In this document: one piece after another, positions 1 to 29,103 of the stretch
How positions within the stretch are numbered: position 1 is the stretch's first letter
How the letters are laid out: every line of letters starts with the position of its first letter
Source of the DNA: a virus
Reading direction: 5' to 3' (one strand)
DNA length: 64,000 nt
IMG/VR virus record: IMGVR_UViG_3300047476_001831
Coordinates: 1 to 64,000 of that record
The notes under the pieces: generated by a model
Database searches by the model: none
What the model was told of the DNA's origin: nothing
The model's input: the letters and a program-made list of their open reading frames with translations, nothing else
Made by a program: the position numbers and the translations under genes

Positions 1-769
1 CTTGTAAGCGATGCTCAAGCCCCAAATACCCACCATTTACTCTTTTTGTTACTTTTCCAACAACATCATCACTTGAACCTTCATCACAAATTGACCAAAG
101 ATTATTACTATTGAAAAAATAACCTGCGGAAGCTAAAGGATAGGTTGTAGCAACTAAATCAGGATTAGATAATAAATCAACACCTAAGAAGTCACCTAAC
201 CTTTTGTAGTTTTCCTTACCGGTAGTTTGTAAAAAACCCCTCCCACGGAATTTGAATCCCTCTTTAGTAGTTTCATCACCATTACCCATTCTACTTCCAT
301 AAACACGAGAAGCAATTTTTTCAGGTTGGTTAGCATAAGACTCGGCTAATGTACCAGGGAAGTATTTTGGAAATACTCTCATCAAACCATCTTTAGAATA
401 GTTGAGATTTTCAGTAACTGCTTTGAAGTTACCTGATTCGTGAGCACATTGTGCTAAGAAATGAGCCAAACGAAGATTCGTGATGATACCAAACTTGTCA
501 GCAATCAATGAAATTTCATTAATAACTGAATCAGGGACATTTCCTTTAAGTCTTTCAGTTTTTAATGTTTCTTTTTGCACTGTTGGTAAAGAAACACCCA
601 TTTTTTCAAGTGTTGCAGGACCCGCAATACCATCGGCAGTCAAACCATTTTTTGTTTGCCATTCTTTCACTGCTTTTTCAGTACCAGGACCGAAGGAACC
701 ATCTGCAGTGATACCCAATTTTTCTTGTAGGAGTTTAACCAAAGCTCCTTGTGAACCGATTTTTAGCAT
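1..769 (-). CDS. Endolysin: peptidoglycan-binding domain plus GH19/lysozyme-type domain (3' end outside window)
   Basis: Cell-wall hydrolase for lysis. Reading the minus strand from the ATG at 769 gives an open frame of 256 codons that runs off the left edge. Residues about 1-55 form a PG_binding_1-type repeat (GSQGALVKLLQEKLG, then DGSFGPGTEKAVKEWQ). From about residue 85 the sequence is typical of chitinase-like GH19 phage lysozymes (LAHFLAQCAHESGNF with the likely catalytic Glu, then FRGRGFLQTTGKENY). A late-type motif, TATTTATA on the coding strand, lies at 787-794, 17 bases before the start. The divergent signalling operon begins at 844. The family call is firm; the exact glycosidic specificity is not. 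Confidence 0.88.
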   Translation of the reverse strand, partial: MLKIGSQGALVKLLQEKLGITADGSFGPGTEKAVKEWQTKNGLTADGIAGPATLEKMGVSLPTVQKETLKTERLKGNVPDSVINEISLIADKFGIITNLRLAHFLAQCAHESGNFKAVTENLNYSKDGLMRVFPKYFPGTLAESYANQPEKIASRVYGSRMGNGDETTKEGFKFRGRGFLQTTGKENYKRLGDFLGVDLLSNPDLVATTYPLASAGYFFNSNNLWSICDEGSSDDVVGKVTKRVNGGYLGLEHRLQ

Positions 770-843: not shown

Positions 844-2064
844 ATGTCAAAAAAAATAAGATTCTCTATTTACTTTTCATATTCACTAATATTGATGTTT
901 GTTGTTACCAACATTTTATCGATTTTTTTACCGAATTGTTACTTTATTTTTTTTAGTATTTTAGAGGTTAGCTTTCTTTTATTATTTATCCCTCCTTTTG
1001 TATTACTAAACAATGAATATGGTAAAAAACTTAAAGACGATTTAAATAATTTTGAAAATTTTGTTAATAATTCAGTCTTGGTGTCAAAGGCTGATAGAAA
1101 TGGGAATATAACATTTGTGAATAAGAAATTCGAAGACGTATCTGGTTGGAAATTAGAGGAGGTTAAAGGTAAAAATCATAATATTGTTAATTCAGGGCAA
1201 CATCCCAAGGAATTTTGGGTTAATATGTATAAGACAGTTGTTAAAGATAAGGAAATATGGAATGAGGTCGTGACCAACAAAAACAAAAATGGGGATTTAT
1301 ACTGGGTTGATTCATATATAAAGGCTGATTTTGATGATGATGGTAAGTTGATAGGTTACAATTCATTGAGATATAATGTAACAGAAATCGTAAAACAAAA
1401 TATTGAGATTGAAACTAAAAACACTTATTTGGAACACGCTGCCAAGATTTTAAGACACGATATGCACTCAGGGATTAATACATATATACCAAGGGGTATT
1501 AGTTCGTTAGAACGAAGATTATCACCTGAACAAATGGAAGAATTGAAAATAACAGCTCCATTTAAAATGATAAAAGAGGGGTTAATTCACACCCAAAAGG
1601 TTTATAAGGGTGTATATGAGTTTACTAACTTAGTTAAAAAGGGTGCTTGTTTGAATGTCACAAATTGTGACCTAAAAGAAATATTGGATAACTATTTGTC
1701 TTCAACTTCTTATAAAAGTCAAGTTGTTATACATCAATTAGTTAAAATAGAGGTTAATGAATCCTTATTTTGTACTGCGATTGACAATCTGATTAGAAAT
1801 GGATTAAAGTATAACGATTCCAACACCAAGGTTGTGACTATTGAAATGGAGAGTGAATTGTTGGTTATACAAGACAATGGTAGAGGAATGACACAAGAGG
1901 AATTTTTACATTTATCTAAACCATATACAAGAAAGTCCGGACAAAAAGAGAGTGGAACCGGATTAGGATTGAATATCTGCGTTGCAATATTGAAAGAACA
2001 CGGATTTGAGGTTAGTTGTGAAAAAAATGAAATTGGAACAAAAATGAAAATTAAATTGAAATGA
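844..2064 (+). CDS. PAS-domain membrane sensor histidine kinase
   Basis: 406 aa. Two N-terminal membrane helices (about 8-28 and 33-52), a PAS domain (about 70-180, with SKADRNGNITFVNKKFEDVSGW split over the core strands), then a kinase module. The H-box is RHDMHSGIN with the likely phospho-His at 205. The N-box is NLIRNGLKYND, and the ATP-lid glycine boxes are DNGRGM and GTGLGLNIC. It probably autophosphorylates in response to a cue sensed by the membrane or PAS part and passes phosphate to the receiver protein two genes downstream. It overlaps the next kinase by 4 bases (ATGA), so the two are translationally coupled. Histidine kinases are rare in phages. Kinase identity is firm; the signal is unknown. 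Confidence 0.9.
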   Translation: MSKKIRFSIYFSYSLILMFVVTNILSIFLPNCYFIFFSILEVSFLLLFIPPFVLLNNEYGKKLKDDLNNFENFVNNSVLVSKADRNGNITFVNKKFEDVSGWKLEEVKGKNHNIVNSGQHPKEFWVNMYKTVVKDKEIWNEVVTNKNKNGDLYWVDSYIKADFDDDGKLIGYNSLRYNVTEIVKQNIEIETKNTYLEHAAKILRHDMHSGINTYIPRGISSLERRLSPEQMEELKITAPFKMIKEGLIHTQKVYKGVYEFTNLVKKGACLNVTNCDLKEILDNYLSSTSYKSQVVIHQLVKIEVNESLFCTAIDNLIRNGLKYNDSNTKVVTIEMESELLVIQDNGRGMTQEEFLHLSKPYTRKSGQKESGTGLGLNICVAILKEHGFEVSCEKNEIGTKMKIKLK

Positions 2065-3449
2065 GATTTATAGTTTTTATTTTATTTTTAATGTTATCAA
2101 CATTCGTTTTTTCCCAAAATATCAAACCACAAAAGGTTGATAGTTGGTGGGATCAAGGTGTCCCCACCATGCCCGATAACCCATACATTATGGGATTGAT
2201 TTATCAATTAGGTGATACATTAGATAAGTGGGATTTTGTAACAACTCAATCCAAAGCAAAAATGTGTAGAGAAATAGGACTAGCATTTTATGATAGAGGA
2301 ATGTATGACGCAGCTGATTGGTATTTGGTTAGATCTAAAAACTATAGAGAGGAAGTTAAAATTGAGAAAGACCAATCAAAAATTTTAGAAAAAGAAGTAA
2401 AATCTTTAGAAAAGGACAAGATTTTCTTGGAAAAATTACCAGTTTCTTTTGAAAGTATGTCAAGGTCAGACTTAAAGAAACTTGTGTCTCAGGTTGATGA
2501 ACAAATCAAGAAATTATTAAGGGAAAGAGATTCTTTGATTAAAGAGAAGGCGCCCCAAATTGTTATAGATTCTAAAAATCAAACTATAAAGTCCTTGAAA
2601 AAAGAGAGAGATTTCATCAAAATGAATATCAAGAATTACAATTTATTAGATGAAATCAAGAAAATTAAAAATTATGTATTTTGGTTAATAATTGGGATTA
2701 TAACTCTTATTTTGGCGATTGTCGCTTTATTACAAAGGAACACAATAAAATATAAAGACAAAAAAATAGTCAGTCAACTTAAAGAAATTGGTAAAAAGAA
2801 CACCTATTTGGAACACGCAGCAAGAATCATTCGTCACGATATGCACTCTGGTATCAACACATATATTCCCAAAGGGATTTCTACTTTAGAAAAAAGATTG
2901 TCATCTGATGATATCAAAAATCTTAAAATTGAACTTCCGATAAAAATGATTAAAGAGGGGTTAAACCATACACAGAGAGTTTACAAAAGTGTTTATGAAT
3001 TTACGAATTTAGTTAAACAAAATGTTGTATTAGAAAAGGTAAAAGTGGATGTTAAAGAATCGTTGTATAGATATTTATTAAGTACTTCTTACAAGTCACT
3101 AGTTATGATTGATAATTTGGGTGAACTGGAAGTGAACGAAACGTTATTTTGTAACGCAATCGATAATTTAATTAGAAATGGTCTTAAATATAATGATAAC
3201 GAGGATAAATTTGTTAGGATTTATAAAGAGGACAATAAGTTAATAATACAAGACAATGGTAGAGGTATGACACAGAAACAATTTAATGAGATTTCTACAG
3301 CATATCTCAAAAACAAGAATAAGGACATTGATAAGGGTGTCTCAGGATTAGGATTAAACATTTGTATTACAATATTAGAGGAACACGGATTTAAACTAAG
3401 TTGTGAAAAAAATGAAATTGGTACAAAAATGATAATAAACTTAAAATAA
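2061..3449 (+). CDS. Second sensor histidine kinase, exported sensor domain
   Basis: 462 aa. A signal peptide (about 1-18, ending VFSQ) precedes an extracytoplasmic segment with long charged helices (about 100-190, likely coiled coil), a membrane helix (about 205-225) and a kinase core. The core is nearly parallel to that of the upstream gene: NTYLEHAARIIRHDMHSGIN (His about 259), NLIRNGLKYND, DNGRGM and SGLGLNIC. The two kinases share the catalytic half but have unrelated sensors, as expected after duplication and domain swap. The start overlaps the previous stop (ATGA). The operon continues 16 bases later with a receiver protein. Confidence 0.9.
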   Translation: MRFIVFILFLMLSTFVFSQNIKPQKVDSWWDQGVPTMPDNPYIMGLIYQLGDTLDKWDFVTTQSKAKMCREIGLAFYDRGMYDAADWYLVRSKNYREEVKIEKDQSKILEKEVKSLEKDKIFLEKLPVSFESMSRSDLKKLVSQVDEQIKKLLRERDSLIKEKAPQIVIDSKNQTIKSLKKERDFIKMNIKNYNLLDEIKKIKNYVFWLIIGIITLILAIVALLQRNTIKYKDKKIVSQLKEIGKKNTYLEHAARIIRHDMHSGINTYIPKGISTLEKRLSSDDIKNLKIELPIKMIKEGLNHTQRVYKSVYEFTNLVKQNVVLEKVKVDVKESLYRYLLSTSYKSLVMIDNLGELEVNETLFCNAIDNLIRNGLKYNDNEDKFVRIYKEDNKLIIQDNGRGMTQKQFNEISTAYLKNKNKDIDKGVSGLGLNICITILEEHGFKLSCEKNEIGTKMIINLK

Positions 3450-3465
3450 AAAAAATTGATAAAAA

Positions 3466-3897
3466 ATGATTGAATCGTTGATGTTAGTAGATGATGAGGA
3501 TTTATTCCATTTGGTGTTTGAGGACGCTTGTTCTTTATTGGATATAAGTTTATCGTTAAAATCTTTAAAAAGTTCAGATGAAGCCGCAAAGTTGTTTGAA
3601 AAGTGGCATAGAGAAGGTGGAGGTAAACCTGAATGTGTTTTTGTTGATTTAAATATTATTGGTTCTTCGTTTGATGGGATTGAATTAATAAGAAAAATTA
3701 ATTTCGAGTTTGGAAATCATGTTGTAATTGGAATTATATCATCATCTAATGAACCTGAAGAACAATCTAAGGCAATCCAAGCCGGCGCACAATTTTGGAT
3801 TATTAAATCTGATGATATTGAACCTAGATTAGAACAATTTAAAATAGATTATCAAGGTTACAAAAATAGAACTAACCCATTTAAGGTTTATAGATAA
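3466..3897 (+). CDS. Receiver-only response regulator
   Basis: 143 aa, one REC domain and no output domain. The acidic pair is in LMLVDDED (D9, D10). The phospho-acceptor is Asp61 in VFVDLN, the conserved Ser/Thr position is in GIISSSNE, and Lys114 is in WIIKSD. All key residues are present, so it should accept phosphate from the two kinases upstream. With no DNA-binding domain it probably acts by protein contact (CheY or Spo0F style) or relays phosphate to a host partner. Its stop shares one base with the next gene's start (TAATG). Confidence 0.9.
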   Translation: MIESLMLVDDEDLFHLVFEDACSLLDISLSLKSLKSSDEAAKLFEKWHREGGGKPECVFVDLNIIGSSFDGIELIRKINFEFGNHVVIGIISSSNEPEEQSKAIQAGAQFWIIKSDDIEPRLEQFKIDYQGYKNRTNPFKVYR

Positions 3898-4574
3898 TGA
3901 AATTTAATAAGGAAACTAAAGAAGAGTTAATTGATTTACTCGAAAAGAAAAACATCGGTTTGGAAGGTAATATTTTGAAAGTAATTGATACTTCAGATGA
4001 CCCCAATTTTGCTAAATATGTCGAAAATTGTAAAGAAAAGGATAAAGAAAACAGAAAAAAAAGATTAGAAATCACAAAACAGGTTCAAGAAAAAAACAAA
4101 GAGTTAATTGAAGTCAATGATGAAAATGAAAGGATAATGAGAGAACTTCAATCAACTTTAAAAGAGGTTGAAGACGCTAAAATTACCTTTGAGGTACAAA
4201 ATAGAGAGTTGGTTGCATGGAAACAAGATAATGAAAGAATTAGTTTAGAGTTACAACAAGAGATGGCAAAGTCCGAATTAGCTAGAATTGAGGCTGAAGA
4301 GGCTAAAACAGCTGCAATTAATGATTTGGATGTATTACAAAAAAGAAAACAAACTGAATTAATTGGTAATATCGTTAAAATTGCTTTAGGTGTTATTGTT
4401 TCAATTGGTGTAATCACAACCTTTATGTATGTATTTGCAATTTTTATGAATAAAGACACCCAAATGATTGGTTCTACTTGGTCTAATATGTTAGGTATTC
4501 TTTTAACAAACGCATTCAGTATTATTGGTACTATTATGGGGGTAAAATACTCAGGTAAAGAAGATAAAGAATAA
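3897..4574 (+). CDS. Coiled-coil protein with two C-terminal membrane helices
   Basis: 225 aa. Residues about 45-150 are a long charged heptad region (KEKDKENRKKRLE, NERIMRELQSTLKEVEDAK). Two membrane helices follow (about 158-183 and 195-218). No enzymatic motif is visible. It is last in the signalling operon and coupled to the regulator by a one-base overlap. It is therefore a candidate output or scaffold at the membrane, but that is inferred from position only. Confidence 0.75.
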   Translation: MKFNKETKEELIDLLEKKNIGLEGNILKVIDTSDDPNFAKYVENCKEKDKENRKKRLEITKQVQEKNKELIEVNDENERIMRELQSTLKEVEDAKITFEVQNRELVAWKQDNERISLELQQEMAKSELARIEAEEAKTAAINDLDVLQKRKQTELIGNIVKIALGVIVSIGVITTFMYVFAIFMNKDTQMIGSTWSNMLGILLTNAFSIIGTIMGVKYSGKEDKE

Positions 4575-4577: not shown

Positions 4578-4604
4578 AAAGGGGTCTATTTTGACCCCTT
4601 CTTT
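4578..4604. terminator. Bidirectional terminator between convergent operons
   Basis: Stem GGGGTC (4581-4586) pairs with GACCCC (4593-4598), loop TATTTT, flanked by an A-run and T-rich sequence. It can end both the plus-strand signalling operon and the minus-strand gene whose stop codon (4586-4588) lies in the stem-loop. Confidence 0.75.
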
Positions 4605-4773: not shown

Positions 4774-5607
4774 TTATGCTATTGATTCTGCTAATTTTTT
4801 TGCGTTATTAAGTTCATATGCTCTTGCCAATCTGGTCATACCACAACCCCAACCAAATCTTGGGAAGAAATCCAAAGATAAGAAATCTTCTAAATCTTTT
4901 TCTACTCTTTCCTTACCAAATAATTCAAAAAGTTTTCCAGCGTAGTTTCCACCTTCGATTGTGTAGAACATTTCTTTCATACTTTCCTTATCACAACTTC
5001 TTTCAGCTGAACCGATAGTTTCTTGACCGAATAGGATAACATCAACCTTTTGGAATTTGTCACCTTCACCTTTTTGCATATTCCAGAATGGGTTTGTTCT
5101 TAATGGGAAGTTTTGTAGAGAGATTGAGTCACCGATTTCATTCCACATTTTTGTTTCGTGTTCAGCTTCAAGGATATCAGTTCCGTATTTTTCACAAAGT
5201 TCGTTATAATCTACAATCTTTGGAGTATCAAAACCAAGGTATTCTAACATTTCAGCTTGAAGTTTAACCATATCTTCTTTTGTTCCTTTTGTTTCCACCT
5301 CAAACATAGGAAAAATTAAATCGTGTCTTCCAGGGATTGGGGTTGCTTCTTGTCTATATGATGTTGAGATACAATATACACCAGGATATTCAGGATTTTG
5401 TAATAATTCGTATTCTAACCACATTTGACCTGTTTGGGGTAATGGCCAAACCTCACCTGAGTATTCAAATTTTGTAATACTATGTGGATTTTCACATGCG
5501 GCAAGGATTGATAATCTTGATTGAACTGGAACTTCTAAGAAACCTTTAGCTTGGAAGAATGTTCTCATTTTTTGGACTAACTCATTGTAGATTTTTGTGT
5601 TTTTCAT
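4774..5607 (-). CDS. Class II aminoacyl-tRNA synthetase-like catalytic domain (Asn/Asp group)
   Basis: 277 aa. Motif 2 is recognisable (CISTSYRQEATPIPGRHDLI, followed by FPMFEVETKG), as are a central ILFGQETIGSAERS segment and motif 3 (GWGCGMTRLARAYEL). This is the fold of AspRS/AsnRS and of the AsnA-type asparagine synthetase. The N-terminal anticodon-binding OB domain (about 100 residues) is absent, so classic tRNA charging by anticodon recognition is doubtful. It may be an AsnA-like amidating enzyme, a paralogue that acylates another substrate, or a minimal synthetase. Its place in a phage with a full tRNA set makes a translation role attractive but unproven. Confidence 0.75.
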   Translation of the reverse strand: MKNTKIYNELVQKMRTFFQAKGFLEVPVQSRLSILAACENPHSITKFEYSGEVWPLPQTGQMWLEYELLQNPEYPGVYCISTSYRQEATPIPGRHDLIFPMFEVETKGTKEDMVKLQAEMLEYLGFDTPKIVDYNELCEKYGTDILEAEHETKMWNEIGDSISLQNFPLRTNPFWNMQKGEGDKFQKVDVILFGQETIGSAERSCDKESMKEMFYTIEGGNYAGKLFELFGKERVEKDLEDFLSLDFFPRFGWGCGMTRLARAYELNNAKKLAESIA

Positions 5608-5932: not shown

Positions 5933-7798
5933 ATGAGTAAAATTATAGGAATTGACTTAGGTACGACAAATTCGTGCGTTGCCGTTATGGAAAACGGAGA
6001 ACCAATTGTAATAACAAACAATGAAGGTAAAAGAACAACGCCTTCAATCATTGGTTTTGTTGACAATGGTGAAAGAAAGATTGGTGACCCTGCCAAAAGA
6101 CAGTCAGTAACAAATCCTGACAAAACAATTTATTCAATCAAACGATTTATGGGTTCTAATTTTGATGAAACAAAGTCAGAGGTTAGTAGAGTACCATATA
6201 AAGTTGTTAAGGGTAAAAACAATACACCAAGAGTTGAGATTGATGGTAAACAATACTCACCACAAGAATTATCAGCAATGGTGTTACAAAAAATGAAACA
6301 AACGGCTGAAGACTATTTGGGTCAAGAAGTAACAGAAGCTGTAATCACAGTTCCAGCATACTTCAACGATGCTCAAAGACAAGCAACAAAAGAAGCTGGT
6401 GAGATTGCGGGACTAACAGTTAAAAGAATTATCAACGAACCAACAGCTGCAGCCCTTGCCTATGGTCTTGATAAGAAAAACAAAGACTCCAAAATTGTTG
6501 TTTTTGACTGTGGTGGTGGAACACATGACGTATCTATCCTTGAATTAGGTGGTGGAGTATTTGAAGTATTATCAACAGATGGTGATACACACTTAGGGGG
6601 GGATGACTTTGACAATGCAATTGTTGATTGGTTAACATCAGAGTTCAAAAATGAAAATGGTGGAGCTTGGAACGATGATTCTATGGCAATCCAAAGATTG
6701 AGAGAGGCTGCAGAGAAAGCAAAGATTGAATTATCTTCTTCTCAATCAACAGAAATCAATTTACCTTACTTTATGGTGATTGATAATCAACCAAAACACC
6801 TTGTAAAAACACTTACAAGAGCAAAATTTGAACAATTGATTGATAAGTTGGTTGAAAGAACAATTGCACCTTGTAAATCAGCACTTAAAAACGCTAATCT
6901 TACTATTGGAGAAATTGATGAGGTAATTTTAGTTGGAGGTTCTACTAGAATCCCAGCAATCCAAGAAGCAGTTAAGAAGTTTTTTGGTAAAGAACCATCA
7001 AAAGGTGTAAATCCTGATGAAGTTGTTGCTTTAGGTGCGGCAATTCAAGGTGGTGTATTAGCTGGTGATGTAAAAGACGTTCTTTTATTAGATGTAACCC
7101 CACTTTCATTGGGTATTGAAACTATGGGTGGAGTATTCACTAAATTAATTGAGGCAAACACCACAATTCCTACCAAAAAGTCACAGATTTTCTCTACAGC
7201 GGTAGATAATCAACCATCGGTAGAAATACATGTACTACAAGGTGAAAGACCAATGGCAAAGGATAATAGAAGTATTGGAAGATTCCATTTAGATGGTATC
7301 CCACCTTCAATGAGGGGTATTCCACAGATTGAAGTTACATTTGATATTGATTCAAATGGTATTATCAATGTTGCTGCTTTAGATAAAGGTACAAACAAGA
7401 AACAAACAATCAGAATTGAGTCTTCTTCTGGTTTATCACAAGATGAAATTGATAGAATGAAACGTGAAGCGGAAGAAAATGCTGAAACTGATAGATTAGC
7501 TAAAGAAAAAGCTGAGAAAATCAATGAAGCTGATAGTACAATCTTCAACATTGAGAAAACAATGAAGGATTTGGATGAGAAAATCAGTGATGAACATAAA
7601 GAAAACATCAAAAAAGAACTAGAATCACTAAAAGAAGCTAAAAATAGTGGTGATGTTGAAGTAATTAACAAAGCATTGGATAGTATTAATATGAAAATGC
7701 AAGAAATTACACAAGAACTTTACAGTAATGTAAATGAACAAACTGAACCAACAGATGGATTTAATGGTTCTGATGTTGAATTTGAAGAAGTTAAGTAA
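5933..7798 (+). CDS. dnaK: DnaK (Hsp70) chaperone, full length
   Basis: 621 aa, a normal length for bacterial DnaK. It has an N-terminal ATPase domain ([55 protein letters not shown]), the linker [19 protein letters not shown], the substrate-binding domain and helical lid, and the C-terminal EFEEVK tail. The second phosphate loop reads [10 protein letters not shown] where most DnaKs have DLGGGTFDVS. ATP-driven folding of host or phage proteins is expected, using host DnaJ/GrpE since neither is visible here. A complete dnaK is unusual in a phage and was probably acquired from the host. A likely operator lies upstream and a strong terminator follows. Confidence 0.97.
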
Positions 7799-7805: not shown

Positions 7806-7834
7806 AAACCCCTGAGTTACTCGGGGGTTTCTTC
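7806..7834. terminator. Terminator after dnaK
   Basis: An 11-bp stem (7806-7816 with 7820-7830, one G-T pair) with loop TTA closes with TTT and a T-rich tract. It is usable from both strands, ending dnaK and the minus-strand gene that stops at 7817. Confidence 0.85.
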
Positions 7835-8110
7835 TTTTACATCTTCTGTTTTCTTTTCTTTTTGAATTTGGTGAATTATGTAACCTGAAATTGCAAACTC
7901 AACCCCAGCCCACATAATTAAATCAGTCATAGTTAATGTGGAATGTTTTTCTAATAAGAAAAATATCATTCCCCACTGAGCAACTAGAAAAGCAATACCA
8001 GATTCAATTCTTTTTTTGGAAAAAAATGATTCTTTTGAGGAATACATATTTGTAACTTCTCTAATTAACCATTTTATATTTTCCCACCCAAAAAATAATT
8101 TATTTTTCAT
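7817..8110 (-). CDS. Small two-helix membrane protein
   Basis: 97 aa from the ATG at 8110, chosen because a late-type TATTTATA lies 12 bases upstream (8122-8129) and a terminator sits inside the longer upstream frame. Two hydrophobic helices (around GIAFLVAQWGMIFFLLEK and LIMWAGVEFAISGYIIHQI) and an acidic C-terminus. Function unknown. Confidence 0.7.
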   Translation of the reverse strand: MKNKLFFGWENIKWLIREVTNMYSSKESFFSKKRIESGIAFLVAQWGMIFFLLEKHSTLTMTDLIMWAGVEFAISGYIIHQIQKEKKTEDVKEETPE

Positions 8111-8139
8111 AAGGTTTTTATTATAAATAGGATATAAAT

Positions 8140-9996: not shown

Positions 9997-11022
9997 TTAT
10001 TTGTCAAATCGTTTAAGTGCGTTCTGAGTAATAAAGACATATTCAGTTTCTTTAAACTCCTCCAATGTTTTAGAATTAGTATAAGACATTGCTGACTTGA
10101 GATAATCTTGTAGATTTTCAACCCACTTATTCAAAGTATATTCAACTTTGTTATATTTTGAAATCCCTTCTGATGTTATTAATTTATCTTTCCCCCACTT
10201 TTTCTGAACTTCTTTTGTACTCATACCTCTAAACTTTTTATACATTATTTTTCTTAGAGGTGGATGATTATTCCATATATAATTTGAGAATGATTCACTG
10301 ATTGGAAATACTTTTCCTAAATAAATTGGTGAACAGGATTCCAAACATTTGTTGAGTACCCCACCTAACATAACATAATCGGCGCCAATGGCTAAGGCCT
10401 TAATAATATCATCATAATTTCTAAATCCACCATCAGCAACGATGTTAGTTTTGTAACCTCTTTTCTTTTTGATTTGATAACATTCTGAGATTAGTGATGC
10501 CATTGGATAATGAACACCAGTATTTGCTGAAGTTAAACAACCTGAACCACCACCAATTCCAACACGAACATAATCAACACCCAATTCGGCAAACTTTTCG
10601 TAAGTTGATGGGTTAGCAATGTTACCAATCATTAATTTATGTGTAGTTTTTATGTTCTCAACAAAATATTTACACAAATCATAGAGCTTTGACATATGTC
10701 CATTTGCAATATCAATTAAAATCTTCTGATACTTTGGTAGTTTTTCAAATTTTTGATGGTTTGAAACCATAATCTCAAAATCATATAAAGATATAGAAGT
10801 GAAAACATTGTTATCGTAAGTGTATTCACCTCTAGGTAAACATACTTCTAAATTAGTGTCTAGAAATCTTTCATAATTTTCGTAGTTAACCACAGTATCC
10901 ATAGGGCTTACTATGATTGGAAGTGTCATTTCTTCGGTAAAAATATTAATCTCACTTCTTGAACTGATTGTTGAGAGTGTTTCAGGTACTAATGTAATGT
11001 CTTTGAAATCAAATTTGTGCAT
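9997..11022 (-). CDS. IMP dehydrogenase / GMP reductase family enzyme
   Basis: 341 aa TIM-barrel enzyme of purine nucleotide metabolism. Visible family marks are IIVSPMDTVV, the active-site loop GIGGGSGCLTSANTGVHYP with Cys as nucleophile, the phosphate site IVADGGFRNYDDIIKALAIG, ADYVMLGG, and a flap-like MYKKFRGMSTKEVQ. No CBS domains are present, so its length fits GMP reductase or the short phage forms of IMPDH. I cannot decide between NAD-dependent oxidation of IMP and NADPH-dependent reduction of GMP. It probably adjusts guanine nucleotide pools during replication. Confidence 0.85.
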   Translation of the reverse strand: MHKFDFKDITLVPETLSTISSRSEINIFTEEMTLPIIVSPMDTVVNYENYERFLDTNLEVCLPRGEYTYDNNVFTSISLYDFEIMVSNHQKFEKLPKYQKILIDIANGHMSKLYDLCKYFVENIKTTHKLMIGNIANPSTYEKFAELGVDYVRVGIGGGSGCLTSANTGVHYPMASLISECYQIKKKRGYKTNIVADGGFRNYDDIIKALAIGADYVMLGGVLNKCLESCSPIYLGKVFPISESFSNYIWNNHPPLRKIMYKKFRGMSTKEVQKKWGKDKLITSEGISKYNKVEYTLNKWVENLQDYLKSAMSYTNSKTLEEFKETEYVFITQNALKRFDK

Positions 11023-11070
11023 AATTTATCCTTTTTTAGTAAGGATAAATGAAATGGATTAAAAGTTCAA

Positions 11071-11697
11071 TTATTTTTCTTTAAATCTTCTTATCAATCT
11101 GATAAGTAAATTTTTGAATAGAATACCAGAAATAGTTATACCAGCATAAGAAATTATTCTTGTAGCAAAATCTTTCATATCCACACCTTCAAGTGAACCA
11201 CTGTGAACCATATTTATAATTGGGGAAATTAGTGGGATTATGAAAGCGAAACTTAACATATTTGATACTCTGTAGAAACTAAAATTTAAACTTTCCAAAA
11301 AATCAAATAGTGCATTCCTTAGTTCATCACTTTTTTTAAGAACTTTTTCAAAAATATTTGATAATCCTTCTTCACGAATTTTATCATATATTTTTTTCAA
11401 ATGTTTTTGATTATCTATGAAGTATGTCGCTGTGATACCAATTAATATTAATGAAAACTGTTCCTCTGTAAGTTGAGGAAATTTACCTTCCAAAAATTGT
11501 GTAATTGGCCCCATAAAACCAGTTACACTGGCAGAGAATGACAAAAAAATTTTAGCATCTATACCGAATTGAGTTTGAAGCTCATCAACAGTTTCTTTTA
11601 CAAAATTTTTACCCCTTTTTAAAATATTACCTAGTTCCTCACTGGCACTTTCTAATAATATTCTTCTTTTTTGACTTTCTGTGATTACTATTTTCAT
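11071..11697 (-). CDS. Membrane-associated phage protein with capsid-targeting-like leader
   Basis: 208 aa from the ATG at 11697; an upstream TTG is less likely. The leader MKIVITESQKRRILLESASE has a possible LLE/S cut. Hydrophobic stretches lie near residues 50-95 and 145-200 (SNMLSFAFIIPLISPIINMV). TATTTATA on the coding strand at 11713-11720 precedes the start by 15 bases. Possibly a packaged protein that acts at the membrane on infection; that is inference. Confidence 0.65.
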   Translation of the reverse strand: MKIVITESQKRRILLESASEELGNILKRGKNFVKETVDELQTQFGIDAKIFLSFSASVTGFMGPITQFLEGKFPQLTEEQFSLILIGITATYFIDNQKHLKKIYDKIREEGLSNIFEKVLKKSDELRNALFDFLESLNFSFYRVSNMLSFAFIIPLISPIINMVHSGSLEGVDMKDFATRIISYAGITISGILFKNLLIRLIRRFKEK

Positions 11698-20312: not shown

Positions 20313-21710
20313 ATGAACTTCATTGATGCTTTACAATCAGAGGATACTTTAACGGAAAACGGAATGGTAACAAATTCTTCAACTTTGAACGAATGTGTAA
20401 ACCTATTCTTCACAATTGGTGCTATGAGAGGACAAGATAAGCAAAGACTTATTTCCACATTCTCAAAAGCATTCAATGAGAATCCGTTAACTGCATTGAA
20501 AATCTTATTTTGGGTTAGAGATGTAAGAGGTGGCGCAGGTGAAAGACAAATCTTCCGTGATATTCTAAAATATCTAGTGGAGAATCATCCGAATGTAGTA
20601 AAACAAAACATTCAAGCAATACCACATTTTGGTAGATGGGATGACCTTTCAGTTCTTTTTGGTACCGAGTTGGAAGCTGATGCTACCAATATGTTTGTAA
20701 GTGGTCTAATTGTAGAAAATGGACTATGTGCAAAGTGGATACCAAGAAAGGGTGTTATCTTCAATGCAATTAGAAAGGTATTGAAAACCACCCCTAAAAA
20801 CCTTCGTAATCTGTTGGTAGGAATTTCTAATACTGTTGAGCAAAAGATGTGTGCTAACCAATGGAATGAGATTGAGTATGAAAAGACTCCATCATTGGCT
20901 ATGGGTAGATACACAAAGGCTTTTGCAAAACACGACTTAGGTGGTTTTACTGAGTATTTAAATAAGTTAAAAAAAGGAGAAACCAAAGTCAATGCGGGTG
21001 CTGTATATCCTTACAATGTGGTTCAAACAATGAATCAAGGTAGTTGGGAATTAGCAAACGAGCAATGGAAATCTTTACCAAACTTTATGGAAGGTACAAC
21101 TGAAAGGATTTTACCTGTGGTTGATGTATCTGGGTCAATGGGTTCAGTAGTTTCTGGTAGTATAACTTGTCTAGATGTAGCAATTTCTTTGGGATTATAT
21201 ATCTCTGAAAGAAATGAAGGGGTGTTCAAAGATAGTTTCATTACTTTCTCTGAAAAACCTCAACTTCAAGTACTTTCAGGTTCATTGAGAGAACGTTACA
21301 ACCAAATGAGTCAAGCTGATTGGGGTATGAATACAAATCTTGAATTAGTATTTAATGTTGTCCTAAATCAAGCTTTGAAACACAAAGTTCTGCCTGAAGA
21401 TATGCCTTCTAAAATATTGATTATGTCTGATATGGAATTTGACCAAGCTACAAGACAATCTGAAAGTGCGATACAGATGATTAGAAGACAATATGAAGAA
21501 AGTGGTTATTCACTACCACAAATCATATTTTGGAACATCCAATCTAGGGGAGGAAACTTCCCAGTAAGACATAATGAATCGGGGACTGCATTAATCTCAG
21601 GACTTTCACCAAGTATTGTAAAGTCAGTATTGGGTGGAAAAGAGATGACACCAATATCTATTATGAATGAGACAATCAATTCAGAAAGATATTCAATCAT
21701 CGAGATGTAA
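20313..21710 (+). CDS. Ro60-like TROVE-vWA RNA-binding protein
   Basis: 465 aa. Residues about 1-255 form a HEAT-like TROVE/DUF2828 ring (LKILFWVRDVRGGAGERQIF, HFGRWDDLSVLFG, MGRYTKAFAKHDLGGFTEYL). Residues about 265-465 are a von Willebrand A domain with an intact MIDAS start DVSGSMGS (Asp271). Ro proteins hold the 3' ends of misfolded RNAs in the ring and bind Y RNAs on the outside; in bacteria they tether exonucleases. A strong Y-RNA-like structure begins one base after the stop and a large tRNA array follows, making a phage Ro RNP likely. RNA binding is inferred from family and context. Confidence 0.87.
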   Translation: MNFIDALQSEDTLTENGMVTNSSTLNECVNLFFTIGAMRGQDKQRLISTFSKAFNENPLTALKILFWVRDVRGGAGERQIFRDILKYLVENHPNVVKQNIQAIPHFGRWDDLSVLFGTELEADATNMFVSGLIVENGLCAKWIPRKGVIFNAIRKVLKTTPKNLRNLLVGISNTVEQKMCANQWNEIEYEKTPSLAMGRYTKAFAKHDLGGFTEYLNKLKKGETKVNAGAVYPYNVVQTMNQGSWELANEQWKSLPNFMEGTTERILPVVDVSGSMGSVVSGSITCLDVAISLGLYISERNEGVFKDSFITFSEKPQLQVLSGSLRERYNQMSQADWGMNTNLELVFNVVLNQALKHKVLPEDMPSKILIMSDMEFDQATRQSESAIQMIRRQYEESGYSLPQIIFWNIQSRGGNFPVRHNESGTALISGLSPSIVKSVLGGKEMTPISIMNETINSERYSIIEM

Positions 21711-22273: not shown

Positions 22274-22346
22274 TCCCCCTTGGTATAATGGTTGATTACA
22301 TCAGATTTTGATTCTGAGGATGGTGGTTCGATTCCATCAGGGGGAA
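22274..22346 (+). tRNA. tRNA-Gln (TTG)
   Basis: Acceptor TCCCCCT/AGGGGGA, anticodon stem TCAGA/TCTGA with loop TTTTGAT giving anticodon TTG, T-loop TTCGATT, discriminator A. The CCA end is not encoded. Confidence 0.9.
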
Positions 22347-22366
22347 CTTAAAAAAATTACAAAACA

Positions 22367-22398
22367 TTTGGAAATATCAAAAATTGATTGTAGTTTTG
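22367..22398 (+). promoter_or_regulatory. Host-type promoter inside the tRNA array (TTTG-N20-TAGTTTTG)
   Basis: TTTG at 22367-22370, 20-base spacer starting GAAATAT, TAGTTTTG at 22391-22398. Closely similar copies, including the spacer, occur at 22916, 25654 and 30518. It fits the Bacteroidota sigma consensus. Confidence 0.65.
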
Positions 22399-22401
22399 TG
22401 G

Positions 22402-22469
22402 AAGAGTAAGGAAAGGTCGTAGGTAGCACTGTCCACAACCAGCCTTAAACGTGGTGGATACTTACTCTA
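22402..22469 (+). ncRNA. Small hairpin RNA transcribed from the 22367 promoter
   Basis: AGAGTAAG (22403-22410) pairs with CTTACTCT (22461-22468), and an inner CCAC/GTGG helix lies within. It starts at the expected transcription start. It lacks a T-loop or anticodon loop, so it is not a tRNA. Function unknown. Confidence 0.45.
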
Positions 22470-22475
22470 ATTTAT

Positions 22476-22548
22476 GGTGGGATTGCCAAGTTGGTCAAGG
22501 CGAATGGCTGAAGATCATTTAATGTAGGTTCGATTCCTACTCCCACCA
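22476..22548 (+). tRNA. tRNA-Phe (GAA)
   Basis: Acceptor GGTGGGA/TCCCACC, D-stem GCC/GGC, anticodon loop CTGAAGA, T-loop TTCGATT. CCA is encoded after the discriminator A (22549-22551). Confidence 0.9.
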
Positions 22549-22558
22549 CCAAACAAAT

Positions 22559-22633
22559 GTGGTATGTACCCCAACTGGTAGAGGGGCATCATTGTGGATG
22601 ATGTATGTGTGGGTTCAAATCCCATCATACCAC
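22559..22633 (+). tRNA. tRNA-His (GTG) with encoded G-1
   Basis: TGGTATG pairs with CATACCA, and an extra 5' G (22559) faces C73 (22633), the histidine identity pair. Anticodon loop TTGTGGA. Confidence 0.88.
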
Positions 22634-22643
22634 CAAACAAATT

Positions 22644-22726
22644 GGAAGAGGTCCGAATGGACGAGGACACTGTCTTGAAAACAGCTGGGCGTAATTGCTT
22701 TGGGGGTTCGATTCCCTTCTCTTCCG
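22644..22726 (+). tRNA. tRNA-Ser (TGA)
   Basis: Acceptor GGAAGAG/CTCTTCC, anticodon loop CTTGAAA, long class II variable arm, discriminator G. Confidence 0.92.
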
Positions 22727-22739
22727 CAACTTATAAAAT

Positions 22740-22811
22740 GTCTCTATGGTGAAAAGGCAATCACACTTGACTGTTAATCAAGTATTCCTGGTTCGAGTCC
22801 AGGTGGGGACG
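22740..22811 (+). tRNA. tRNA-Asn (GTT)
   Basis: Acceptor GTCTCTA/TGGGGAC (two G-T pairs), anticodon stem CTTGA/TCAAG with loop CTGTTAA, discriminator G. Confidence 0.9.
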
Positions 22812-22820
22812 CAACTTTTT

Positions 22821-22893
22821 AGTCCCATAGTTCAACGGATTAGAACCTATCACTACGGATGATAAGATACCTGTTCGAATCGGGTTGGGACTA
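22821..22893 (+). tRNA. tRNA-Arg (ACG)
   Basis: Acceptor AGTCCCA/TGGGACT, anticodon loop CTACGGA. The A34 would need deamination to inosine by the host TadA. Discriminator A. Confidence 0.9.
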
Positions 22894-22915
22894 CAAAAAA
22901 AAACTTTACTTATTA

Positions 22916-22947
22916 TTTGGAAATAAGAAAAACAAATTGTAGTTTTA
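22916..22947 (+). promoter_or_regulatory. Repeat of the tRNA-array promoter (TTTG-N20-TAGTTTTA)
   Basis: TTTG 22916-22919 and TAGTTTTA 22940-22947, spacer GAAATAAGAAAAACAAATTG. It precedes the small membrane-protein gene at 22973. Confidence 0.55.
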
Positions 22948-22972
22948 CATAACAATAAAAAATAATAAAAAA

Positions 22973-23125
22973 ATGAGAAATTTAATGTTCATCTTGGTTT
23001 TCGGTTTTGTACTTAGTATTCTATTACCTCTTCCAAAATTAATAGGCACACCTATGACACTTGTTGTTTTAGGTTTGATTTTGGGAGTAGTGTCAATTTT
23101 AGAAAACACAAGAAAAAAAGTTTAA
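22973..23125 (+). CDS. Small two-helix membrane protein
   Basis: 50 aa, hydrophobic with a basic tail (ENTRKKV). It follows a promoter of the repeated type and precedes tRNA-Ser(GCT). Unknown function; similar in style to the 49-aa protein at 23231. Confidence 0.55.
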   Translation: MRNLMFILVFGFVLSILLPLPKLIGTPMTLVVLGLILGVVSILENTRKKV

Positions 23126-23131
23126 TCAATT

Positions 23132-23216
23132 GGAGGGTAAAGTAATCAGGGTCATTACCACCGCCTGCTAAGCGAGTGATACCAATAGGTATGTGTTTCG
23201 AGTACACTGTCCTCCA
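23132..23216 (+). tRNA. tRNA-Ser (GCT)
   Basis: Acceptor GGAGGGT/GTCCTCC, anticodon loop CTGCTAA, long variable arm (ATACC-N3-GGTAT), T-arm GTGTTTCGAGTACAC, discriminator A. Confidence 0.85.
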
Positions 23217-23230
23217 CAAAAAATTAAAAA

Positions 23231-23380
23231 ATGTTATTAATTATTGGTCTTTTATTTTTGATAATTGGAGTAATCTTATTAGTTTTGTCTTTCATCAAAA
23301 GAAACTCGGATTTGTTTGTAATAGGATTTATATTTCTAATCGTTCTTTTGTTGGGAATTATTTATGGTTTAATAATATAG
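23231..23380 (+). CDS. Small two-helix membrane protein
   Basis: 49 aa, two hydrophobic helices joined by SFIKRNSD. Its TAG stop overlaps the first two bases of tRNA-Pro. Function unknown. Confidence 0.55.
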   Translation: MLLIIGLLFLIIGVILLVLSFIKRNSDLFVIGFIFLIVLLLGIIYGLII

Positions 23381-23453
23381 GGGTGTAGCTCAGTTGGTTA
23401 AGAGTACTAGTTTTGGGAACTAGTGGTCGCAGGTTCGAGCCCTGTCACCCCTA
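23379..23453 (+). tRNA. tRNA-Pro (TGG)
   Basis: Acceptor AGGGGTG/CACCCCT, anticodon stem CTAGT/ACTAG with loop TTTGGGA, discriminator A. It shares two bases with the upstream stop codon. Confidence 0.88.
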
Positions 23454-23463
23454 CAATACATTT

Positions 23464-23538
23464 TGTCCTGTAACTCAGTTGGTTTAGAGTACTACGCTGA
23501 TACCGTAGGTGCCGTGGGTTCAAGTCCCACCAGGACAA
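23464..23538 (+). tRNA. tRNA-Ile (GAT)
   Basis: Acceptor TGTCCTG/CAGGACA, anticodon stem CTACG/CGTAG with loop CTGATAC, discriminator A. Confidence 0.9.
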
Positions 23539-23562
23539 CTATTTTTTTAATACTTAAAAATT

Positions 23563-23967
23563 ATGAATCAAGAATTTGTACCCTTTGAAGAATCCTTGGA
23601 ATTAAAAGAAATGGGATTTGATGAATTATGTTTTGGATATTACTCGAATGGTCAAATAACGAATGTTGACTTGAATTGGGTAAGTACTTCAATCAATCCC
23701 CCCACTTTAATTGATGGTGGATTCTATAGTATGAAAAATAGTGACACCACTAATGAACTTAATTGCACTGCACCAATCTATTCACAAGTATTCCATTGGT
23801 TTATGGAAACCCATAAAATAGATTCCAGTGTGATGGAAATGAAGTTTGTGATTGAGTCTGATGAAGATTTACCGAAATGGTTTTATGGGTTCAATAATTA
23901 TGACGAAACAAAATTAGGATGTTTAAGACAATTAATTAGAAAGGTTAAAAAAAATGGAAAGGGTTAA
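23563..23967 (+). CDS. Hypothetical phage protein
   Basis: 134 aa, soluble. The pattern LELKEMGFDELCFGYYSNGQ and later APIYSQVFHWFMETHKI resembles proteins I recall from Bacteroidota phages, with no known function. It overlaps the next gene by 14 bases. Confidence 0.65.
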   Translation: MNQEFVPFEESLELKEMGFDELCFGYYSNGQITNVDLNWVSTSINPPTLIDGGFYSMKNSDTTNELNCTAPIYSQVFHWFMETHKIDSSVMEMKFVIESDEDLPKWFYGFNNYDETKLGCLRQLIRKVKKNGKG

Positions 23968-24211
23968 AATTGGTGAATACAAAATTGGGGATAATTTGAT
24001 TATCGAATTTGGTGAAAACAATCCCAACAATAAGGAAGTTCAGGTTAGAGCGATAGTTGATATGGAGGTTGTAATTTTATTGGATAAGAATCAAAATTAT
24101 TTAATGGAAACAGTAAAATATATGAATCTTTTATGTAGATTTGGGAACGTTATTCGTGAAAAGAATGATGTGAGATTTCAAACCGAATTAATTCACGACC
24201 CAAGAATCTAA
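23954..24211 (+). CDS. Small hypothetical protein
   Basis: 85 aa, beta-rich (VKIGEYKIGDNLIIEFGENN). No motif known. Overlaps its upstream neighbour by 14 bases and is 3 bases from the next gene, so the three form one translational unit. Confidence 0.55.
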   Translation: MERVKIGEYKIGDNLIIEFGENNPNNKEVQVRAIVDMEVVILLDKNQNYLMETVKYMNLLCRFGNVIREKNDVRFQTELIHDPRI

Positions 24212-24214
24212 ATT

Positions 24215-24511
24215 ATGCTAAAAAGAATTATCAAAAGGAGTACTTGTAAGTTTTACGAATCAATTAGAAACCGATTTAATATGGAGTGTGTGTTGAGAGA
24301 AGGTGATTATGTTTATGATATTGAGGATGGGAGTGAATGGTTGTTATTGGAAAATCCCAATAAAGGTGGTTCGGCAAAAAGTATTTGTACATTTGCGCCT
24401 GAAGGTTGTGTGTATAAAATAGGAACACCATTCAAAAGATGTTATTTTGATGAGTTTGGTAAATTGAGAAAATACCTCAAAAGAGGTATGAACCCAGAAA
24501 GAAATTTTTAA
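24215..24511 (+). CDS. Small hypothetical protein
   Basis: 98 aa with a basic N-terminus (MLKRIIKRSTCKFYESIRNR). The middle (DYVYDIEDGSEWLLLENPNK) suggests a small beta fold. Last of a three-gene unit before tRNA-Lys. Confidence 0.55.
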   Translation: MLKRIIKRSTCKFYESIRNRFNMECVLREGDYVYDIEDGSEWLLLENPNKGGSAKSICTFAPEGCVYKIGTPFKRCYFDEFGKLRKYLKRGMNPERNF

Positions 24512-24516
24512 TTAAT

Positions 24517-24591
24517 GACCCTGTGGCTTAGCTGGTTTAAAGCACAATACTTTTAATATTGGGATCGGGAGTTCGAATCTCCCCAGGGTCA
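24517..24591 (+). tRNA. tRNA-Lys (TTT)
   Basis: Acceptor GACCCTG/CAGGGTC, anticodon stem CAATA/TATTG with loop CTTTTAA, discriminator A. Confidence 0.93.
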
Positions 24592-24816
24592 CTTAGGTAT
24601 AGTTTGGATTATTAATCCCATTGAACTTGCGGTTACTTTATATGTGAATAATGAAGGGGTAAAATTAATACCCATTTGTTTGAAATCGAAAACTTCGAAT
24701 TCTTGTTCCTCATAAACTCCAACAATCGAACTTGTTTCGTTATTGATGTATAAGGAATCAAAGGTTTTTAAGTTTATTACTAAACCTATTTCAACTGGGG
24801 GGATAAGTATTGTCAT
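24589..24816 (-). CDS. Small hypothetical protein on the minus strand
   Basis: 75 aa, beta-rich, no motif. A late-type TATTTATT on its coding strand at 24832-24839 supports it. Its stop codon overlaps the 3' end of tRNA-Lys on the other strand. Confidence 0.55.
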   Translation of the reverse strand: MTILIPPVEIGLVINLKTFDSLYINNETSSIVGVYEEQEFEVFDFKQMGINFTPSLFTYKVTASSMGLIIQTIPK

Positions 24817-24860
24817 TTAATGGTTTTGTTAAATAAATATTGAATTTAAATTAAATTTTT

Positions 24861-25544
24861 ATGTCAACAACTTGGAATGAAATTTGGAAAAATAGGAAGG
24901 TAGAATTTGATTCGTTGGATTATTCTAATTTATTGAAACTGAATGGTTATGATGGTCCTCAAAGTAATCTAACTCCACAAAATTTAAATCTAGCTCATAA
25001 GATTTATGCGGAAAAAATGAATTTAAAACCTAATCAGAGTATTTTTGAGGTTGGTTGTGGGGCAGGTTCTTTCCTGTACAATTGGTATAATAGTGGACAT
25101 AAAGTTGGTGGATGTGACATATCTAAAAACTTATTGGAATGTACAAAAAAAATCTTACCAAGAGGTGAATGGTATTTAGCTTCAGATAGTGAATTTGAAA
25201 AAGAGCCTAAATGGGATCACTTGGTATCTTTTGGTGTGTGTATGTATTTAACACCAAGAGAGGTTTTGAATTTAATCGATAGAATGATAAATAAAGCGAA
25301 TTTTAGTGTATCATTATTCGAAATCTCTGATTTAGACAAGATGATAGATTGTGAAAAAGAAAGAAGAAGAATGATTCCTAATTATGAGGTTAAATACAAA
25401 GACTTAAACCATTTTTATCATAGTAAAAATGATATTTCTGAACATTTAAATAAGTTAGGTTTAAATTATACCATTTATGATCAATACATACCTGGTTATG
25501 AAAATTCTAAATGGAGATTTAATGTAACTATTAATTTGGTTTGA
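24861..25544 (+). CDS. Class I SAM-dependent methyltransferase
   Basis: 227 aa. The Rossmann motif I is SIFEVGCGAGSFLYNW (about 60-75), followed by a GGCDISKNLLE acidic strand and a VSFGVCMYLTP motif. The fold is that of small-molecule methyltransferases (Methyltransf_11/25 type), so substrate cannot be assigned. Free-standing between a minus-strand gene and tRNA-Val. Confidence 0.8.
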   Translation: MSTTWNEIWKNRKVEFDSLDYSNLLKLNGYDGPQSNLTPQNLNLAHKIYAEKMNLKPNQSIFEVGCGAGSFLYNWYNSGHKVGGCDISKNLLECTKKILPRGEWYLASDSEFEKEPKWDHLVSFGVCMYLTPREVLNLIDRMINKANFSVSLFEISDLDKMIDCEKERRRMIPNYEVKYKDLNHFYHSKNDISEHLNKLGLNYTIYDQYIPGYENSKWRFNVTINLV

Positions 25545-25558
25545 TTAATATAAATTCT

Positions 25559-25633
25559 ACTTCCTTAGCTCAGTTGGTTTAGAGTAACATCCTTACAAGG
25601 TGAAGGTCATTGGTTCGAATCCAATAGGAAGTA
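25559..25633 (+). tRNA. tRNA-Val (TAC)
   Basis: Acceptor ACTTCCT/AGGAAGT, anticodon loop CTTACAA, T-loop TTCGAAT, discriminator A. The anticodon stem has one A-A mismatch at its outer pair. Confidence 0.87.
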
Positions 25634-25653
25634 CAAAAAAACTTTACAAAGTG

Positions 25654-25685
25654 TTTGGAAATATGAAAAACAAGTTGTAAGTTTG
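25654..25685 (+). promoter_or_regulatory. Repeat of the tRNA-array promoter (TTTG-N20-TAAGTTTG)
   Basis: TTTG 25654-25657, spacer GAAATATGAAAAACAAGTTG, TAAGTTTG 25678-25685. A consensus match about 10 bases before the abnormal tRNA-like gene. Confidence 0.65.
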
Positions 25686-25694
25686 TAAGACACT

Positions 25695-25770
25695 AGTTTT
25701 GTAGCTTAATGTGTGAAAGCGTTCAATGGGTAACTGTTGAAAGATTTAGGTTAGAATCCTGTCAGGACTA
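25695..25770 (+). pseudogene. Degenerate tRNA-like sequence
   Basis: Acceptor AGTTTTG/CAGGACT pairs with G-T wobbles and the D-arm is present. The anticodon arm TTCAAT/GTTGAA closes an 8-base loop GGGTAACT. The T-loop is TTAGAAT, lacking the invariant C56. Either a decaying tRNA or a tRNA mimic. It has a good promoter of its own. Confidence 0.5.
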
Positions 25771-25774
25771 CAAA

Positions 25775-25915
25775 AAAAATGTACCTCGATGCCTCTCATA
25801 AGAACGGCACACTAGCAGAGGTCTTGTTGCTTGTAAACGAATAGCCCAAGGTATAAGTTAGGAAGCTTAACTCAACCTATCCCCCACTGACGAGTGGGGT
25901 GAAGTTGGGGGATTA
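25775..25915 (+). ncRNA. Structured RNA with mutually exclusive 3' pairings
   Basis: CCTCT/AGAGG closes a 5' domain. Near the 3' end CCCCACT-GACG-AGTGGGG competes with ATCCCCCA pairing to TTGGGGGAT, a switch-like arrangement. The only reading frame inside is 21 codons. No Rfam family recognised with confidence; transposon-associated RNAs of the HEARO/omega type are a possibility, but no tnpB is present. Confidence 0.4.
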
Positions 25916-25972
25916 AAAAGAAATATTATATATCTGCAATATATAAAATTCATTAACTTAAAAACAATCAAT

Positions 25973-26938: not shown

Positions 26939-26948
26939 TTATAAAATT

Positions 26949-27033: not shown

Positions 27034-27085
27034 CAAAAAATAGTTCAGTTAGTTATTTTTACTCATTTTGTTGATATTTATATAT

Positions 27086-27817: not shown

Positions 27818-27845
27818 AAGTTATTATTATCTTTACATAACATAT

Positions 27846-27920: not shown

Positions 27921-27934
27921 CAAAACTTAAAAAA

Positions 27935-28135: not shown

Positions 28136-28136
28136 T

Positions 28137-28457: not shown

Positions 28458-28459
28458 AT

Positions 28460-29101: not shown

Positions 29102-29103
29102 TT

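Follow-up and report, generated by a model that had tools for sequence, protein, structure and literature searches.

What a phage could do with a two-component signalling system of its own, and whether such a system may act in host lysis, is the question raised by positions 844-4574 of the 64,000-nt window analysed here (positions 1 to 64,000 of virus record IMGVR_UViG_3300047476_001831). The phage is of the T4 type, with a terminase and a gp20-like portal on the same record. Four ORFs were confirmed at this locus: two histidine kinases (HK1 and HK2), a response regulator (RR) and a coiled-coil membrane protein (CC). The reading preferred here, with a probability of roughly one half, is that the module is a phage phosphorelay regulating host lysis through CC. 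The signalling chemistry encoded by these genes is well supported, and we infer the control of lysis, its sign and signal included.

HK1 and HK2 overlap by 4 nt (ATGA) and RR and CC by 1 nt (TAATG), while HK2 and RR are close but not overlapping because of a 16-nt gap. The sequence-only reading had described a complete and translationally coupled two-component set; this was confirmed, and the set is conserved in many relatives. The operon is preceded by a divergent intergenic region of 74 bp (770-843, assigned to neither strand) with TATTTATATAAATA at 817-830, where the motif TATTTATA/TATAAATA sits 5' of HK1. Upstream of the genes of this phage, ATATTTAT is about 17-fold enriched (19/93 genes). 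Thus, the motif once called late-type is real and enriched, but its identity as a late promoter is conjectural. A terminator-like hairpin, read from the sequence (AAGGGGTC-TATTTT-GACCCCTT, 4579-4600, plus strand), lies directly 3' of CC.

Both kinases carry a HATPase_c domain scoring above the cut-off, together with TM or hydrophobic N-terminal segments, as expected for the membrane histidine kinases that they had been taken for. HK1 (844-2064, plus strand) consists, according to Pfam and residue alignment, of N-terminal TM segments, a PAS domain (PAS_3, 1.7e-7), a DHp region with phospho-His205 in the H-box RHDMHSGIN, and HATPase_c (5e-15). HK2 (2061-3449, plus strand) has a signal-like segment, an extracytoplasmic sensor region, a TM segment at about aa 206-224, a DHp region with His259, and HATPase_c (2.4e-12); its AlphaFold model resembles solved kinase cores, e.g. 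those of HK853 and CpxA. The Pfam HisKA model did not match the H-box of HK1 or HK2. The phospho-His (His205 in HK1, His259 in HK2) is invariant in 129/129 kinases, as are, within the N, G1 and G2 boxes of HATPase_c, the core N and G residues. The median dN/dS of the kinases, 0.20, indicates purifying selection. In three long records a kinase of this family occurs without RR.

RR (3466-3897, plus strand; Response_reg 3.3e-8) is a receiver-only response regulator of 143 aa, in which Pfam finds the receiver domain and neither an output nor a DNA-binding domain, in line with its first description. The catalytic residues attributed to it are all present, and D9, D10, D61 (codon 3646-3648), S92/S93 and K114 are invariant in 90/90 regulators; no homologue was found to have lost Asp61 or, among the kinases, the phospho-His. 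By size, 183/186 RR matches measure 100-149 aa and three 150-199 aa. Purifying selection is indicated here too (median dN/dS 0.07).

CC (3897-4574, plus strand), the start of which overlaps the RR stop, is the proposed membrane effector. Its AlphaFold model shows a long helix followed by a helical TM hairpin. Two TM segments are predicted, within about aa 153-185 and 198-216, and the C-terminal hairpin that they form (about aa 153-216; 4353-4544, plus strand) holds the most conserved part of the protein; the median dN/dS is 0.16, again indicating purifying selection. No Pfam family matched CC above the cut-off, and sequence and fold searches of the PDB, Pfam and PHROGs yielded no function, although 32/42 CC members matched phrog_1544, a PHROG of unknown function (best 1.3e-5). 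There was no significant match to holin families either, the best in Pfam being Phage_holin_9 (0.007, one member, below cut-off), and hhalign comparison of the hairpin with membrane families encoded nearby, including a neighbouring holin family, revealed no similarity. CC also exceeds typical holins in size, and is at most a candidate holin.

A possible function for the other end of CC is suggested by a bacterial homologue. On a Bacteroidetes MAG contig (L254, CANIVF010000058), HK and RR genes are followed by a gene in which the CC N-terminus is fused to a HisKA/HATPase kinase core; the part shared with this kinase (L254:8041-9090) is aa 1-75 of CC (3897-4121, plus strand). This operon resembles the phage module in its homologous HK core, its RR (65% identical), the CC N-terminal domain in the third gene and its overlapping genes, but the third protein ends in a kinase core and not in a TM hairpin. 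No phage genes were recognised among the flanking genes scanned. Given this fusion, RR is probably read by the CC N-terminus, with the membrane hairpin serving as a phage-specific effector. Such loci are rare in bacteria: two peptide patterns of CC found no match in 84,980 genomes, RR was found there at two loci, of which one is on a phage contig within a MAG, and a search of Bacteroidota with the CC N-terminus gave one convincing genome in about 790, a further weak match of 22 bits being judged due to chance.

In phages the module is conserved. Among 156 distinct RR neighbourhoods, 142 have the order HK(s)-RR-CC, RR is followed by CC in 153 and preceded by HK in 145, and the remaining 11 consist of RR-CC only. 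In almost every module the RR and CC genes share 4 or 1 nt. This close joining, together with the bacterial fusion, supports the earlier proposal that the output may run through the last gene by way of protein contact. The sensor ends of the kinases vary (PAS, extracytoplasmic and other), whereas the receiver is nearly invariant. The rarity claimed for phages holds for the cultured-phage records searched, from which the module is absent, but not for uncultivated contigs, where it is common. In tblastn searches of 50,697 phage records, RR and CC had no match at 0.01 and HK1 matched by its PAS domain only (E<=1e-5); looser searches gave generic HATPase matches (rIIA, topoisomerase) and chance matches only. 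The closest T4-type relatives by portal, namely Microcystis phage Mel-JY01, Flavobacterium phage immuto, cyanophages, T4 and an uncultured 484-kb phage, had no match to PHROG families resembling the module genes.

The neighbouring endolysin, noted at the outset as divergent, was confirmed as a GH19 enzyme with a peptidoglycan-binding domain (1-769, minus strand, start codon at 769, cut by the record edge; PG_binding_1 8e-15, Glyco_hydro_19 2e-8), and a relative matches phrog_181, an endolysin family. In the window it lies divergently across from the operon and is not adjacent to CC. In long phage records, a GH19 gene lies within 2 kb of the module in 13/17 cases against 0.7 expected, and within 5 kb in 15/17 against 1.2 expected, a linkage not reached in 200,000 simulations; these contigs are not independent, and such linkage can mirror late expression in common instead of a common function. 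In about 28 modules GH19 begins within 24 nt of the CC stop, and in 27 modules CC directly precedes it at a distance of 10-24 nt, where a classical holin would sit; in about 40 a lytic enzyme is divergent upstream. The linkage reappears with enzymes of more than one class and in more than one orientation, also across the at least 31 changes of module arrangement on the RR+CC tree. Some loci have an amidase and a Phage_holin_4_1 protein adjoining the module, and a separate recognised holin is present at some. Thus, the guess that the system serves lysis gains quantitative support from the linkage to endolysin, while lysis control itself is proposed on this basis.

According to the preferred reading, the membrane kinases, one or two in number and with sensor ends that can be exchanged, would autophosphorylate on the DHp histidine and hand the phosphate on to the module's only receiver, at Asp61. 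Once phosphorylated, this receiver would act by protein contact and not on DNA: it would bind the N-terminal domain of CC in the cytoplasm, and the change would travel along the coiled coil to the inner membrane, where the hairpin of two helices would lie. CC might then promote or restrain the neighbouring endolysin, in its release or its activity, whether as a holin, an antiholin or a regulator of holins. Phosphotransfer, the contact between RR and CC and the membrane insertion of CC are all predicted steps. More tentatively, the phosphorelay may directly gate a holin-like membrane protein of a new class, with the kinases reading the cell or its surroundings and the receiver touching the coiled-coil stem of CC to set the moment of lysis.

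It is rather unlikely, though worth weighing, that the relay is real and CC a membrane effector serving a purpose other than lysis, such as superinfection exclusion, envelope protection or remodelling of the host membrane, the endolysin being near since these would all be late genes. Of 83 modules with enough flank, there are 34 in which no lytic enzyme was recognised within 3 kb, and the lack of a holin match for CC fits this view, as does the frequent presence beside the module of DnaK, which is not a lysis gene; the linkage in long records far above chance, its recurrence across enzyme classes and orientations and the short CC-endolysin spacing speak for a role in lysis. Single-domain receivers of the Spo0F/CheY kind can also act as shuttles, and the phage proteins could conceivably rewire host signalling by exchanging phosphate with host two-component proteins, while CC holds the receiver at the membrane or buffers it there. 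Since the CC N-terminus sits on a second kinase in the bacterial homologue, the receiver can plausibly feed such a kinase. This is nevertheless improbable: kinase, receiver and effector travel together, and all 148 distinct complete CC copies in viruses carry the TM tail, none having a kinase domain or joining the N-terminus to another effector, which gives the impression of a phage set complete in itself.

Bacteria commonly possess two-component genes, and most control bacteria also give matches to the PHROG families that HK and RR match. This would fit recently captured bacterial genes without lasting use, or a virus record to which bacterial DNA had been wrongly assigned. Such a view is made highly improbable by the strong conservation of the module and the purifying selection on it in many phage contigs, by records of up to 385 kb with the kinase and up to 322 kb with the full module, by the T4-type terminase and portal, and by the near absence from the bacterial genomes searched. 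An artefact or bacterial contamination was rejected in view of the phage hallmarks and the conservation.

Single-domain receivers of the CheY/Spo0F type exert their output by protein contact. The module shares with these systems the DHp phospho-His, the HATPase_c core and the acidic pair, Asp, Ser/Thr and Lys of the receiver, but differs in being phage-borne, in an H-box that Pfam HisKA does not recognise, and in having an endolysin-linked membrane hairpin protein as partner. In Staphylococcus aureus, LytSR-LrgAB/CidAB places holin-like membrane proteins and autolysis under a two-component system; there LytR works on transcription as a DNA-binding regulator of the LytTR type, whereas the phage RR lacks that output domain. 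T4 lysis inhibition, in which antiholins RI and RIII act with holin T, is similar in that a T4-type phage adjusts its lysis by means of proteins that target a membrane holin, but it involves no phosphorelay. Among phage-borne components, Clostridium difficile phage phiCDHM1 encodes AgrC, the agr quorum-sensing kinase, in a genome without a response regulator (PMC3901668); both are phage histidine kinases, and only the present module has an RR. Pelagiphages carry one or two histidine kinases at a fixed place before curli (T8SS) genes, and the parts of that report consulted mention neither a partner receiver nor a CC-like protein (PMC9599517). The cREC domain of jumbo phages is, like RR, a receiver-like domain of large phages; it is tied to NAD+/ADP-ribose enzymes and, according to its authors, never occurs with histidine-kinase systems (PMC7824862). 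A phage two-component system controlling lysis was not found described in the open-access full text searched, which does not prove absence.

The timing of phage lysis is usually described as a preset holin clock with a few antiholin inputs. If the two-component system beside the endolysin controls lysis, then lysis would be a sensed decision in a large uncultivated T4-type group, in which sensors that can be exchanged feed a single, almost invariant receiver, all within a small system of three genes. The receiver would also be a candidate for a new mode of action, in which a docking domain without match to any named family lets it act on a membrane hairpin. Were CC directly gated, the bacterial form, with its reading domain on a second kinase, would imply that the output part has been swapped between cell and phage. 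Many uncultivated T4-related phages carry this sensor-relay circuit and its membrane protein, usually beside a gene for a wall-cutting enzyme, and they may therefore sense conditions before the timing of the burst is set.

The source record totals 82,085 bases, of which the window covers bases 1-64000, and is probably a phage fragment; since it encodes a T4-type terminase and a gp20-like portal, the phage is a tailed one. Four genes on the same strand (window 844-4574) encode the membrane histidine kinases HK1 (406 aa, PAS and HATPase_c domains) and HK2 (462 aa, with a signal-like segment, an extracytoplasmic region, one transmembrane segment and HATPase_c), the receiver-only response regulator RR (143 aa), and CC (225 aa), which combines a coiled coil with a transmembrane hairpin. 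The sequence-only reading had described the genes as translationally coupled; HK1/HK2 overlap by 4 nt and RR/CC by 1 nt, and HK2 and RR lie close together, separated by a 16-nt gap. The endolysin is indeed divergent, as had been proposed: a GH19 gene starts at position 769 in the opposite orientation. Directly 3' of CC a terminator-like hairpin can be read from the sequence. The 74-bp gap between the GH19 gene and HK1 contains TATTTATATAAATA, and the related ATATTTAT precedes 19 of the 93 genes of the phage, an enrichment of roughly 17-fold over the genome as a whole. In the form ATATTTAT(A) it stands just ahead of the start codons, and it is probably a phage promoter element.

Several other genes were identified in the window. 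A class II aminoacyl-tRNA-synthetase-like gene (4774-5607, minus strand; tRNA-synt_2, 1.5e-14; phrog_29758, a family of unknown function, 9e-92) is repeatedly seen in relatives too, on the downstream side of the module, and the phage DnaK (Hsp70; 5933-7798, plus strand) often adjoins the module there too. A small conserved membrane protein, RIESGIAFLVAQWGMIFFLLEKH... (7817-8116, minus strand), found near the module in several phages, had no family match and is a possible separate holin candidate. An IMP dehydrogenase/GMP reductase family protein is encoded at 9997-11022 (minus strand). The DUF2828/DUF7788 gene (20313-21710, plus strand; phrog_850, RNA-binding), possibly encoding a Ro60-like protein, lies directly ahead of a large cluster of 22 tRNA genes (22274-36571, plus strand) covering most amino acids. 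In several phages, a one-TM protein with a GAF-like domain (minus strand 10689-11300 in the phage locus L160; PF01590, 0.0014, below the cut-off), a possible further sensor, sits downstream of CC.

HK-RR-CC is a real and widespread module. IMG/VR scans returned at least 594 matching stretches for HK2, 580 for RR and 547 for CC. Among the matches listed in the first scans, 94 of 105 distinct RR neighbourhoods had the order HK(s)-RR-CC, and RR almost always overlapped CC, by either 4 nt or 1 nt. The search of related phages for the same gene set gave a larger set of 156 distinct RR neighbourhoods: 39 were HK-HK-RR-CC, as in the window, 103 HK-RR-CC, 11 RR-CC and 3 HK-HK-RR, these counts being drawn from related, over-represented contigs that are not independent. 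Each of 24 long records (82-385 kb) carries one to three family kinases, and 21 a single RR. Records L008 (281 kb), L015 (176 kb) and L036 (385 kb) have an extracytoplasmic-type family kinase alone, with no RR found record-wide; either these are orphan input kinases or the records are incomplete.

Loss of the phospho-His or Asp61 in homologues was looked for and not found: the former is kept in 129/129 kinases, and Asp9, Asp10, Asp61 and Lys114 in 90/90 receivers, the contigs here too being related to one another. RR is the most conserved part (median dN/dS 0.07, against 0.16 for CC and 0.20 for HK), and the RR+CC tree requires 25 or more switches in the sensor ends of the adjacent kinases (PAS, extracytoplasmic or other), as expected for a fixed receiver with exchangeable inputs. 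The kinase-to-receiver chemistry is thus well supported by residues and conservation, as a prediction.

For 83 modules the flanks on both sides reach 3 kb or more, and 49 of these have a lytic enzyme (GH19, L,D-transpeptidase-like or amidase-type) within 3 kb. Because short loci could bias linkage, whole records were compared. Seventeen phage records (82-322 kb) contain both RR and GH19; GH19 is no more than 2 kb from the module in 13 of them and no more than 5 kb in 15, where random placement expects 0.7 and 1.2, and the observed values were reached in 0 of 200,000 simulations, with CC lengths in the module extents being approximate and kinship of the records inflating the significance. The start of GH19 falls at most 24 nt past the CC stop in about 28 modules, where an endolysin commonly sits relative to its holin; about 40, like the window, have a divergent lytic enzyme upstream at a distance of up to ~700 nt, and some have both. 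The tree (FastTree on short proteins, hence approximate) implies a minimum of 31 changes in the class, side and orientation of the enzyme, so the lysis association recurred or was kept through rearrangement. CC had no significant holin family match, and 'holin' therefore denotes a hypothetical role, not membership; nor need CC be the sole holin, since in a few loci genes for an amidase and a Phage_holin_4_1 protein precede the module.

Scans of 84,980 genomes of bacteria and archaea, with two peptide patterns each for CC and RR, yielded two RR loci. One, L253, is in fact a phage contig within a MAG (T4-type terminase). The second contig, L254, comes from Bacteroidetes and also carries metabolic genes and one for a T9SS-tailed phosphatase; on it, HK (three PAS domains), RR and a third gene follow one another with overlapping ends. 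The third protein joins the CC N-terminal domain (98.7 bits) to HisKA, scoring slightly under the curated cut-off, and HATPase_c. The transmembrane tail is identical in kind in 148/148 distinct complete phage CC copies; what phage and bacterial third genes share is the N-terminal domain adjoining RR, which is therefore the best candidate for the part that reads RR, and probably its target. L254 aside, this domain is nearly absent from sampled Bacteroidota.

Known phage kinases and receivers include AgrC of phiCDHM1, a histidine kinase without a response regulator (PMC3901668), histidine kinases ahead of curli genes in pelagiphages (PMC9599517), and three automatically named uncultured-phage kinases in BFVD (39-61% identity to HK2 over the aligned part). 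The cREC of jumbo phages is a receiver-like domain explicitly without a tie to kinases (PMC7824862). As the open-access literature yielded no description of a complete phage kinase-receiver-effector set, nor of one tied to lysis, we rate the module as a two-component system whose setting and effector are new. In the likeliest mechanism, the kinases would sense a signal through their extracytoplasmic and PAS inputs and phosphorylate RR, which would then bind the CC N-terminus, a contact supported by the bacterial fusion and gene linkage. The coiled coil of CC may in turn alter the transmembrane hairpin and so permit or delay endolysin action, a putative control of lysis that the linkage supports.
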